Shown piece by piece: positions 16,073-58,767 of a stretch of DNA of 64,000 bases (the stretch's first letter is position 1; each line of letters begins with the position of its first letter). The notes under the pieces were generated by a model that saw nothing but the letters and a program-made list of their open reading frames with translations, was not told where the DNA came from and ran no database searches. The translations under genes were made by a program, and so were the position numbers. The stretch is from Candidatus Dormiibacterota bacterium (lineage in GTDB: Bacteria > Chloroflexota > Dormibacteria > Dormibacterales > Dormibacteraceae), in assembly GCA_024280995.1 (NCBI GenBank), contig JAMXLM010000018.1, positions 124,001 to 188,000 on the forward strand, read 5' to 3'.

Positions 16073-16980
16073 CGCCCGCCCTGAGGGTTGTCGCGCCGGG
16101 ATTGCTGACGACCGTCCAGGACCGCGGTCGCCCGCACGCGATCGCATCGGGAGTCACGCCGGGCGGCGCGATGGACCGGTTCGCCCACGCCGCGGCGAAC
16201 CTCCTCGTCTGGAACGATCAATCCGCGGCTGCGCTCGAATGCACGCTCATCGGACCTCGCCTGGTGGCCGAGCGCGATTGCGTGATCGCGATCACCGGCG
16301 CCGATCTAGGTCCGCGCGTCAACGGCGAAGAGGCGCCGCTGTGGACATCGTTCGCCGTGGCCACGGGGGACGAGCTGTCATTTGCAGGGCGCAGGCTCGG
16401 CGCCCGCGCCTACATCGCCGTCGCCGGAGGGATAGTCGCCGACCGATGGCTTGGCTCGATGTCGACGAACCTGATGGTCGCGCGTGGAGGCGTGCACGGG
16501 CGCGCGCTGGCAGCTGGCGACGTCGTCGCGGCGGGCGAGCCGCCCGCCTCACCGCCCACCGGTCGCACTCTGGACGCGGCGCGGCGTCCCGCCTACGCGG
16601 AGCACACGCTGCGGTCGGTCATCGGTCCACAACCGCGTCGCGGCCTGTTCGGTCCAACGTTCACGGTCAGCCCCGACTCGAACCGGATGGGCTACCGCCT
16701 TGACGGCGAGCGGCTGGAGGCTGTGCCCGAGGAGATCCTCTCGTTCGCCCTCGTCGCCGGCACCGTCCAGATTCCGGCCGACGGCCGGCCGATCCTCTTG
16801 ATGGCCGACCACCAGACCGCCGGCGGCTACCCGGTCGCTGCGGCGGTGGTCACCGCGTCGATGCCCATCGCGGCGCAGCTGGCTCCGGGCGACGAGCTGT
16901 CATTTGCGGAGGTGTCGATCGAGCAAGCGCTCGAGGCGCGCGCCGCTCAGCGCGCGGCGCTCGATTCCCTGGTCAGCTGA
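16069..16980 (+). CDS. pxpC: 5-oxoprolinase subunit C
   Basis: Subunit C (KipA-like, biotin-carboxylase-dependent urea amidolyase family) of 5-oxoprolinase; forms a complex with PxpB and PxpA. 303 residues, starting LRVVAPGLLTTVQDRGRPH, the family opening. GGAMDRFAHAAANLLVWN, ECTLIGPRLVAE and the C-terminal DGRPILLMADHQTAGGYPV (about 240-258) are strongly typical. The ATG overlaps the pxpB stop. It converges on the DfsB-like gene with an 8-bp overlap. Confidence 0.93.
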   Translation: MTPALRVVAPGLLTTVQDRGRPHAIASGVTPGGAMDRFAHAAANLLVWNDQSAAALECTLIGPRLVAERDCVIAITGADLGPRVNGEEAPLWTSFAVATGDELSFAGRRLGARAYIAVAGGIVADRWLGSMSTNLMVARGGVHGRALAAGDVVAAGEPPASPPTGRTLDAARRPAYAEHTLRSVIGPQPRRGLFGPTFTVSPDSNRMGYRLDGERLEAVPEEILSFALVAGTVQIPADGRPILLMADHQTAGGYPVAAAVVTASMPIAAQLAPGDELSFAEVSIEQALEARAAQRAALDSLVS

Positions 16981-17464
16981 GGGCCTCGATCCAGCCGGCG
17001 TGCTCGTCGTAGTGCTCGTAGGTGTTGCCCGCGACCCATTCGACCGCCGGCCTGTCGTCGTTCGGATCGCGGGGATCGTTCGGCTGGTAGTGGTTGTAGG
17101 ACCGGCGCAGGTCGGCGTCGCTGAGCTCGCCGAGCCGGTGCATCAACGCCTCGTGCGACTTGCGCCAGAAACCAAGCACCTCCTCGGCGCTTTCGTGGCG
17201 GTGCCTGAGCCAGATGGCCTCGTTCAGCTCGTCTGTCTCTTCGCCCGCATCCGGCACACCCATCGCCGTCCGCCGGTCCTCACCGTTGAGCAGCGCCAGC
17301 AGCGAAAGCTCCCACGCCGCGATGTGGGCGAGGTGATCCTTCACCGCCCAGCGCTCGTTGCCCTTGAACTCGAGCTTCAGCAGGCCCAAGCGGTCGATCA
17401 GCGCGGCCAGGTTGGCCCAGCTCTTCTCGATCAGCTCGATCTCCTTGTTCGCGGCGATGCTCAC
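16973..17464 (-). CDS. DinB / DfsB-ClbS-like four-helix protein
   Basis: 163 residues, predicted soluble four-helix bundle of the DinB superfamily (DfsB/ClbS branch). The N-terminal helix ELIEKSWANLAALIDRL leads to WAVKDHLAHIAAWELSLL (about 41-58), the motif with the first His; the last His region is NTYEHYDEHAGWI near the C-terminus. Metal binding by these histidines is known in the superfamily. GTG start overlaps the stop of the peroxiredoxin gene as GTGA, so the two are translated together. The actual substrate or thiol partner is unknown. Confidence 0.82.
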   Translation of the reverse strand: MSIAANKEIELIEKSWANLAALIDRLGLLKLEFKGNERWAVKDHLAHIAAWELSLLALLNGEDRRTAMGVPDAGEETDELNEAIWLRHRHESAEEVLGFWRKSHEALMHRLGELSDADLRRSYNHYQPNDPRDPNDDRPAVEWVAGNTYEHYDEHAGWIEALS

Positions 17465-17943
17465 GATTCGTTCGCCACCTTCTTGGCTTCCTCGATCACG
17501 GCGTCGTAGTCAGGCTGCGGCTGCTCGCGCGACCCGATCCACGTGTACCGGATCACGCCGTCGTGGTCGACGACGAACACCGACCGGCGCGCCATGCCCG
17601 AGTAACCCGCGACGTCGTCCCGGCGCACGCCGTAGTCCGTGACCATCTTCCGCTCGAAGTCGCCGATCAGGTCGAACGGCAGGCCGCCCATCTCCTTGGC
17701 GAACGCCTGGTGCGAGAACACCGAGTCGACGCTGATGCCGTAGATGCCCACGCCGTTGGCCACCGCGTCGTCGTTCCTTGACCGAAACTCGGTCAGCTCG
17801 GTTCTTCAACCACCTGTGAAGTCGAGGACGTAGAAGAGGAAGACGAGCGCGCGGAACTTCTCGAGCGCGTCCGCGAGCGTCAGCTCCTGACCGCCCGTCG
17901 TGGGCAGCTTGAAGTCAGGGGCCTTGTCCCCAACCTGCAGCAC
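17461..17943 (-). CDS. Peroxiredoxin with in-frame TGA at the peroxidatic position (probable selenoprotein)
   Basis: Thiol/selenol peroxidase of the AhpC-TSA family. Reading from GTG 17943 gives LQVGDKAPDFKLPTTGG, then FLFYVLDFTGG, then TGA (17806-17808), then RTELTEFRSRNDD, GISVDS and RRSVFVVDHDGVIRY, 160 codons in one frame. The TGA falls exactly where the family has its catalytic Cys (T-x-x-C), and no other Cys is present. A 7-bp hairpin lies just after it (separate entry). Thus the natural reading is selenocysteine at residue 46 and a 1-Cys (1-Sec) type enzyme. A stop or pseudogene is the alternative, but both halves are well preserved. Its stop overlaps the DfsB-like start. Confidence 0.85.
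17779..17795 (-). promoter_or_regulatory. SECIS-like hairpin after the TGA codon
   Basis: On the minus strand TGACCGA, loop GTT, TCGGTCA forms a perfect 7-bp stem. The loop lies 17-20 nt after the TGA, and its first base is G followed by U. Both the distance and the loop fit the known bacterial selenocysteine insertion element pattern (a short upper stem with a G near the start of the loop, some 16-37 nt downstream of UGA). It is within the coding sequence. Confidence 0.7.
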
Positions 17944-17952
17944 GCTTAAAGC

Positions 17953-18756
17953 TTATTGGCTCGCGGATTCGAGCACGTACCAGCCCGACCGCGTCGCACC
18001 CTTCACGCGATAACCGCGACCCATCGCTCCACCGAGCGCATCACGCAGAGCAAGCCGCCAGCGCCGCGCACGCGCGGGGTCGGAGGAGCGCATCGCGACG
18101 ATGTCCTCCGGCACCTGACATATAAGGACGCGAGCGCGGCTCGTGCCCATTGCCGGCTCGCCGGCGGGGTCGACGGTGAGGATGGCGTCGGTCGCCCACC
18201 TGCGCAGCGATTCGGCGTCGACCTCGAATGCGTCGCCTGCGGCCGCGCGCTCCGCCTTCTCCGAGTCCAGGCTCCAGCGGATCAGGAGTCGGTCGGACTC
18301 CTCGCCGGCGTTGATGCCGTCGTGCATCTCGCCGTAGAAGTTGACGAGGTATTCGTGTGCCTCTGCGCCCAGCTTGGTCAGATTGAAGTACGCGTTGCGG
18401 CGGACGAGCGGATCCGTCGTCCACTCCATGACCTTCACTCCGCGCTCGAGGCACCACCGCCGCTGATGCTGCTTGAGGTCGAAGCCCAACCCTCGTGTCT
18501 GGTCGCCGGGCAGCACTCCGAGGATGTGCGAGTGCATCAAGAGCTCGCCGAAGCGCACGCCGAGCCAGCCGACCAGTCCACCGATCATCGCGTCGCCGGC
18601 GAACGCGCCCGCGATGTAGGTGCCCGAGTGCGCCATCGCCGTGAGCAGGTCCGGGCTCATCGGCGGCTCGCCGGGCGATCCCCACACCTCGGCGAAGAGC
18701 GCGCCCAGCCCGATGAACTCCTCGCGGTGTGTGAGCTCACGGATCTCGGCGCTCAC
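17953..18756 (-). CDS. GNAT-superfamily acetyltransferase (COG3375-like)
   Basis: 267-residue predicted acyltransferase. The body has GNAT features: a strand followed by GGLVGWLGVRFGELLMHSHILGVLPGDQTRGLGFDLK (split about 61-97), where QTRGLGFDLK corresponds to the acetyl-CoA-binding loop, then WTTDPLVRRNAYFNLTKLGA (about 117-136). This arrangement matches the uncharacterised predicted GNAT group COG3375. GTG 18756 is the start because it overlaps the preceding membrane-protein stop as GTGA; a longer open frame runs antisense to real genes. Third gene of the coupled run pxpA - membrane protein - acetyltransferase. Substrate unknown. Confidence 0.8.
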   Translation of the reverse strand: MSAEIRELTHREEFIGLGALFAEVWGSPGEPPMSPDLLTAMAHSGTYIAGAFAGDAMIGGLVGWLGVRFGELLMHSHILGVLPGDQTRGLGFDLKQHQRRWCLERGVKVMEWTTDPLVRRNAYFNLTKLGAEAHEYLVNFYGEMHDGINAGEESDRLLIRWSLDSEKAERAAAGDAFEVDAESLRRWATDAILTVDPAGEPAMGTSRARVLICQVPEDIVAMRSSDPARARRWRLALRDALGGAMGRGYRVKGATRSGWYVLESASQ

Positions 18757-19532
18757 GCCAGGCCAAGCCTTCGCCCCGCGAGCAGCGACGCCGTCTGCAC
18801 CACCGCCGCCACCGCGATCGCGACCGCGAACGCGAGCGCCACGCTTTCCGGCAGCAGCAGCCCAAGCACGAGGAAGAACGCGGCGAACGCGAAGAGTCCG
18901 AGCAGGAGCCCACGCAGCACGCCCACCGCCGCGTCCGGCCCCTGGAACCTGTGCGCAAACACCGCCAGCACGCTCGCATACAGCGGGAAGGGAGCCAGCA
19001 GCCCGGCCAACCGTGCGCCGAGCGCCGGTGCCGCGGAGGTGAGCACGAGCACAAAGACTGTCGCGACCAGCATTCGGGCAGGAATATCCCACCGCGGGAA
19101 CCTGGTTTGCTCGGCGCCGGCGTCCGGTCGTCCAGGCACCAGAAAGAGCCCGACGACCAGGACCACGGCCACCAGGACGAAGGTCTCGCCCGCGGGCGGG
19201 CGTATAGGGTTCAGCACCAGCGTGGCGACCGCAAACCCGACGACCGCCGCAAGGAGCGAGACCGCCCAGCCCCGGCGCTGCGCCACCCACGAATAGCCGA
19301 GGCAGAACGCCGCCTGCGAGATTGCGCCGGCCATGATTCCGACGGCGGCCTCTGCCGCAAAGCGCGGACCTGGATCGAGGGCGAGGAAGAAAGCGACCGG
19401 CGCCGATGTGAACGGTATGCCGACGAGCCATCCGCCGACCGCGGAGCCCCAGCGGCGCCCGGCCAGGCTCGCGGCTCCGACCAGCACCGGGGTGAGGACC
19501 AGCTTGAGCGCAAGGGCGGCCGCGGGGCTCAA
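18753..19532 (-). CDS. Polytopic membrane protein of unknown function
   Basis: 259 residues, very hydrophobic, about eight membrane segments with short Arg-rich loops (GRRWGSAVGGW, QRRGWAVSLLAA). The motif GGWLVGIPFTSAPVAFFLALDPG (about 33-55) is the best-conserved looking part, in style like small permeases, but I cannot name a family. TTG at 19532 overlaps the pxpA stop (TTGA), and its stop overlaps the GNAT start, so the three genes are coupled. Given pxpA upstream, a role in 5-oxoproline or amino-acid movement is possible but speculative. Confidence 0.75.
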   Translation of the reverse strand: MSPAAALALKLVLTPVLVGAASLAGRRWGSAVGGWLVGIPFTSAPVAFFLALDPGPRFAAEAAVGIMAGAISQAAFCLGYSWVAQRRGWAVSLLAAVVGFAVATLVLNPIRPPAGETFVLVAVVLVVGLFLVPGRPDAGAEQTRFPRWDIPARMLVATVFVLVLTSAAPALGARLAGLLAPFPLYASVLAVFAHRFQGPDAAVGVLRGLLLGLFAFAAFFLVLGLLLPESVALAFAVAIAVAAVVQTASLLAGRRLGLA

Positions 19533-58561: not shown

Positions 58562-58767
58562 CGAAGCTGTTCCTTCTTTTGATCCGCGGATACCAGCTGA
58601 CCCTTTCCCGCGTCATGCCACCCTCGTGTCGCTACTACCCCTCCTGCTCGCACTACACGTACGAGGCGGTCGAGCGGTATGGATGGCTCAAGGGTGGATG
58701 GATGGGCGCTGCGCGCATCGCACGCTGCCATCCGTTCGCGGCGGGCGGGTACGATCCGGTGCCCTGA
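58558..58767 (+). CDS. yidD: Membrane protein insertion efficiency factor YidD
   Basis: 69 residues, one amphipathic/hydrophobic N-terminus ([14 protein letters not shown]) then the conserved Cys-rich block [26 protein letters not shown] (split) and [14 protein letters not shown], typical of YidD. Associates with membrane protein insertion. The ATG overlaps rnpA, and yidC starts 4 bases downstream, so the group is a standard operon. Confidence 0.94.

Follow-up and report, generated by a model that had tools for sequence, protein, structure and literature searches.

The window analysed here, a stretch of 64,000 nucleotides from a Candidatus Dormiibacterota bacterium, carries on its minus strand (17461..17943) a gene that, judged from sequence evidence, almost certainly encodes a one-selenocysteine peroxiredoxin, in which UGA codon 46 would be read as selenocysteine (Sec) via SelA, SelB, SelD and tRNA-Sec, and which would be resolved by an external thiol. 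The frame 17943-17461 begins with GTG (read as Met) and comprises 160 residues including the putative Sec46, with the translation VLQVGDKAPDFKLPTTGG...VLDFTGG-TGA-RTELTEFRSRNDD...RRSVFVVDHDGVIRY. Apart from the terminal TGA at 17461-17463, the TGA at 17806..17808 is the only stop codon in this frame, which contains no Cys codon. A preliminary description of this DNA had reported an open minus-strand frame through one TGA and a protein devoid of Cys, and both features were confirmed when we re-read the frame.

The protein belongs to the AhpC/TSA peroxiredoxins: the PF00578 profile scored 117 bits against a gathering score of 26 (E 6.5e-34), and phmmer matched it to PDB 2cx3 (1.7e-27). An AlphaFold2 model had a pLDDT of 96.3, and the predicted peroxiredoxin fold is close to that of the 1-Cys peroxiredoxin AhpE. 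A 2-Cys mechanism would require a resolving Cys in the protein, for which the frame holds no codon. Codon 46 aligns with the peroxidatic Cys of homologues (T43-x-x-U46), as expected of a bacterial selenoprotein gene. In a scan of named genomes, of which the best 80 of 447 loci were kept (20 from Dormibacteria and 60 from elsewhere), 56 of the 60 non-Dormibacteria loci had TGT or TGC in this column and four had TGA, namely two from Bacillaceae and two from other Chloroflexota; in the alignment suggested earlier as a check, this column is thus Cys in most distant homologues. The two loci from Rossellomorea vietnamensis (L099) and Bacillus sp. P14.5 (L102) have TGA at the peroxidatic column within NFTPG[U]ITEL. 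The gene has 20 named near-relatives at 73-89% identity, all from MAGs labelled 'Chloroflexi bacterium' and 'Candidatus Dormibacteraeota/Dormiibacterota', many with titles pointing to soil.

We followed the TGA through 101 genomes (the host's own and 100 relatives), 94 of which gave a peroxiredoxin match at E <= 0.001. Within the host family, 40 of 42 genomes, all of different species, had a gene with one TGA; one of the remaining two had only a weak match without TGA, and the other (71% complete) had no match. TGA-bearing matches were also found in 17 of 18 genomes of a sister family (f3); one of these matches scored lower (9e-14) and may be a paralogue. Fifty orthologues fetched as best matches, 40 from the host family and 10 from the sister family, were read: TGA stood exactly at column 46 and R120 was kept in all 50, and position 43 was Thr in 40 and Ser in 10. 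The stop codons that end these same genes varied, with 30 TGA, 16 TAG and 4 TAA overall (28, 11 and 1 in the host family; 2, 5 and 3 in the sister family), and an internal TGA that stays fixed while the end stop varies is strong evidence that it is kept as TGA. Cys was absent from 36 of the 40 family orthologues in the stretch read, which for one of the 40 (L052) lacked the start, and the other four had a single Cys, at position 22, 77, 77 or 154. The PF00578 search located six further places in the host genome, none with TGA, so that the window gene is the only Sec peroxiredoxin candidate of its genome by this profile, unlike in several family genomes. Examples of a second peroxiredoxin match with an internal TGA, 34-35% identical, are G014:C39:3280-3705, G019:C31:90317-90742 and G023:C136:26144-26545.

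Just 3' of UGA46 lies a candidate bSECIS hairpin, TGACCGA-GTT-TCGGTCA (17779..17795, minus strand). The limits of the bSECIS model given in a 2026 review (PMC13188914) are a loop of 3-9 nt, a stem of 4-16 bp, G as first or second loop base, a spacing of 16-37 nt and an MFE <= -7.5; some bSECIS elements are stated there to fail the model. The window hairpin has a 3-nt loop with G first, a 7-bp stem, a spacing of 17 nt between UGA and loop and, as a bare hairpin, -8.4 kcal/mol; hence a scan by these published limits, used in place of bSECISearch itself, bore out the 7-bp SECIS-like stem with a G-first loop noted earlier. Rfam gave nothing convincing on the segment; its two matches, both far below gathering scores and on the opposite strand, were judged to be due to chance. 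When codons were randomised synonymously (2000 draws, using the group's own codon usage), seven contiguous pairs arose in 0.5% of draws for the window gene, and across the twelve rows with a 7-bp stem the stem was matched by 0.1-0.5% of draws. Other rows were unremarkable by this measure, synonymous draws being equal or better on pairs in about 21% for L022 and L057 and on energy in about 40% for L054, L055 and L060.

We consider it rather unlikely that Sec is inserted with the help of some other element read by SelB, the hairpin at 17779-17795 being shaped by coding constraint instead. The peptide ELTEFRSR is conserved here. In the scan, 20 of the 40 host-family hairpins satisfied every model limit, as did 6 of the 21 from other Sec homologues and none of the 10 from the sister family, so that half of the family and the whole of the sister-family sample miss at least one published limit. 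The corresponding rates for codon-order shuffles were 8.2% (host family), 2.7% (sister family) and 8.6% (other Sec homologues). Among Cys rows, 1 of 10 from Chloroflexota and 0 of 56 distant ones passed; the distant rows make a poor control, since even when shuffled they almost never pass (0.8%). In the 45 nt after UGA, the minimum-energy fold contained the hairpin core in 11 of 40 family rows; the other 29 fold otherwise, and in several of the alternative folds the same 3' arm pairs with a GACCGA-like copy that lies earlier in the sequence. Within the 27 nt round the hairpin, the best fold formed the core pairs in all 40. Against an origin in coding constraint stand the scarcity of the 7-bp stem among synonymous draws in the twelve rows that have it, and compensatory changes that preserve pairs in L054-L056 and L058.

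Covariation was assessed in 31 of the 40 family rows, which are related to one another. Four rows had U-A in place of G-C at pair 15/29, two had U-A in place of A-U at pair 16/28, and none of 500 column shuffles reached the observed covariation score or paired percentage, while 50 of 500 reached the number of covarying pairs. Sliding the pairing by -1 gave a covariation score of 0.142 versus 0.105 in register, with 59% versus 89% of cells paired. The A-U pair that closes the loop was lost in 9 of the 31 rows, eight via a TTC and one via a TTA codon; the loop is then larger, and G is its second base. In the sister family, a stem of the kind TCACCTC-CTTGC-GAGGTGA occurred in 8 of 10 rows, and none of the ten hairpins passed the model since G is missing from the first two loop bases. 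Stems of different sequence at the same place in other Sec peroxiredoxins, for example L185, L189 and L190, again favour a SECIS function over coding constraint.

The host MAG (3.02 Mb in 46 contigs, 94.4% complete) contains the complete set of machinery genes that the preliminary description had proposed to look for. A selA gene (C9:47588-48640, 4.9e-123) lies just upstream of selB (C9:48715-50508, 324.6 bits, above cut-off). A tRNA-Sec with anticodon UCA, corresponding to selC, was found at C18:234136-234231 (68.2 bits) and was called tRNA-SeC(tca) by ARAGORN. A second tRNA-Sec match on C39 (48.6 bits, barely above the gathering score) was rejected, being tRNA-Ser(GCT) by ARAGORN. The selD gene (L149; G000:C2:217819-218730, 337.9 bits) itself has an in-frame TGA at SHGAG[U]ACK. 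Searching with four profiles only, we found five candidate selenoproteins in the genome, namely the peroxiredoxin, SelD, two formate-dehydrogenase-like molybdopterin oxidoreductases whose matched stretches each contain a single in-frame TGA (L209, G000:C8:4457-5728, NRT[U]HAPSVAGL; L210, G000:C16:2408-4054, RV[U]HGPTVVSL), and an AhpD-like CMD-domain frame (L213, G000:C44:222-434, KCRY[U]LSSH) that is a possible CxxU selenoprotein. We take the in-frame TGAs of the SelD, FdhA-like and AhpD-like genes to be the usual Sec sites of those proteins. The claim that this organism uses UGA as selenocysteine was thus supported by selA, selB, selD and tRNA-Sec(UCA) as well as by conservation of the TGA.

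An open frame through TGA would, taken alone, fit equally a genome in which UGA is recoded throughout as Trp, Gly or Cys, or is read through as Cys. We regard such recoding as highly improbable, since UGA ends the window gene and 28 of 40 family orthologues, other internal TGAs fall on the usual Sec positions of SelD and FdhA-like proteins, and the genome carries tRNA-Sec(UCA), selA and selB; in addition, UGA at 58765 separates two neighbouring genes. The last codon emerged from a window-wide scan for internal TGA codons in frames that are GC-rich at the third codon position, which gave nine places including the peroxiredoxin TGA and 58765-58767. On codon-position GC the latter was considered as a second read-through and rejected as an ordinary stop between two adjacent same-frame genes, presumably YidD- and YidC-like. 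At seven of the nine places GC at position 2 exceeded that at position 1, opposite to the peroxiredoxin gene.

That UGA46 is a true stop, leaving through pseudogene formation or sequencing error a 45-residue fragment and the 100-aa ORF that can be called mechanically from GTG 17763, is scarcely credible given that the codon falls exactly on the catalytic Cys, that family orthologues with TGA share 55-99% protein identity with an open remaining frame and intact catalytic residues, and that the family yielded no close Cys version, its matches lacking TGA reaching 38% identity at most. Sequencing error, for which resequencing had earlier been suggested, is ruled out because the identical TGA recurs in 40 of 42 family genomes of separate species.

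Decoding of UGA46 as Sec is further consistent with the distribution of the machinery. With strict filters, full-length selA was found in 34 and tRNA-Sec (E <= 1e-9) in 30 of the 40 TGA-bearing family genomes; 26 had both, and the two that had neither were 70% and 59% complete. One TGA-bearing genome that is 95% complete (G007) has tRNA-Sec without a full selA. In two other families of the class, 15 genomes had no selA match, and of the 12 among them with a peroxiredoxin match none had TGA. Many genomes of these two families have selA, yet their best peroxiredoxin match is without TGA; the machinery therefore does not force the Sec form.

We infer the following course of Sec insertion and peroxidase activity. 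SelD would provide selenophosphate, SelA would convert Ser-tRNA(Sec, anticodon UCA) to Sec-tRNA, and SelB on the hairpin just 3' of UGA46 would deliver it, so that UGA46 would be read as Sec and the terminal UGA as stop. In the T43-x-x-U46/R120 pocket, Sec46 would attack H2O2 or a hydroperoxide and be converted to selenenic acid. Since the protein offers no Cys as resolving residue, reduction of the oxidised Sec46 would fall to an external thiol, either a redoxin or a low-molecular-weight thiol. In AhpE, reduction is carried out by mycothiol/mycoredoxin.

Sec peroxiredoxins with a TxxU motif are already known, and the window gene is outside the curated PrxU equivalog. PrxU of Eubacterium acidaminophilum (NF040737; PF00578) resembles the window gene as an AhpC/TSA protein with UGA at the peroxidatic position in T-x-x-U; the window protein differs in having no Cys and in its lineage. 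Against NF040737, which we take to represent Eubacterium-type PrxU, the window gene scored 61.2 bits versus a cut-off of 270, and hence it is not a PrxU equivalog. The thiol peroxidase Prx-SUH (NF045827) also belongs to this superfamily and is curated as a Sec peroxidase; the window gene scored 47.5 bits against it versus a cut-off of 298, and the motif of Prx-SUH is CxxU. AhpE of Mycobacterium tuberculosis (1-Cys; PDB 1xxu, 4x0x) has a catalytic Cys and about 30% identity to the window protein. The archaeal Bcp4/thiol peroxidases (PDB 3hjp, 2cx3) also differ from it in having a peroxidatic Cys, which in 2cx3 is followed five residues later by another Cys that the window protein lacks. Surveys have counted 12 Sec peroxiredoxins in 2006 (PMC1794560) and 91 across 78 organisms in 2016 (PMC5029168), and the 2026 review places TxxU Sec peroxiredoxins under PF00578, giving a 2001 Eubacterium report as source (PMC13188914).

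The present case very probably adds a selenium-decoding soil lineage; in open PMC we found no paper that joins Dormibacter with selenocysteine or with peroxiredoxin, and five that mention Chloroflexota together with selenocysteine and selenoprotein. A Cys-free peroxidase that relies on Sec only would allow the reduction of one-Sec enzymes to be studied, and a family that lacks a close Cys form is informative about when Sec is irreplaceable. Gene callers usually treat UGA as a stop, and a caller that does so splits this peroxiredoxin gene at its catalytic residue.

Across the phylum, a search of 301 genomes gave a match at E <= 1e-20 in 200. The best 31 rows listed, 23 from the two families used to make the profile and 8 from others, had one TGA each; lower among the matches listed, TGA and non-TGA forms were mixed. 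In a tree of 73 rows, which were chosen rather than sampled, the host-family rows formed one clade (99/99), nested in a 27-row group of 26 Sec and one Cys (99/94), and the Sec/Cys state required at least four changes. This grouping and these changes of state suggest that Sec was present before the host family arose, with exchanges between Sec and Cys in other parts of the superfamily. Four other Chloroflexota Sec homologues (L188, L191, L192 and L193) have an atypical active site, DFGRI/V[U], in which Gly replaces Thr/Ser three residues before Sec.

Downstream of the peroxiredoxin gene, a DinB/DUF1706-like gene (16973..17464, minus strand) has a start that overlaps the peroxiredoxin stop. Its product weakly resembles the mycothiol maleylpyruvate isomerase domain (1.2e-5) and fell below NCBIfam cut-offs. 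A DinB-like gene adjoined the peroxiredoxin gene in 15 of 15 same-genus loci (the host's own included) and in 21 of the 29 loci that include roughly 1-1.5 kb of flanking sequence, and may possibly be its operon partner; this neighbour suggests a possible thiol link for the peroxiredoxin. A wider proposal, which we put forward tentatively and consider doubtful as a whole, is that Chloroflexota hold an old subfamily of Cys-free one-Sec peroxiredoxins in which Sec is fixed and not exchangeable for Cys, that in the Dormibacteria family the adjoining DinB/maleylpyruvate-isomerase-like protein supplies or handles a low-molecular-weight thiol which resolves the enzyme, and that this enzyme might constitute a selenium-dependent peroxide defence of bacteria in soil, outside the curated PrxU family. 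On the upstream side, a conserved frame (17956..18762, minus strand), acetyltransferase-like by eye and without a match in Pfam, was matched beside the gene in all 29 loci with flank, the host's own included.
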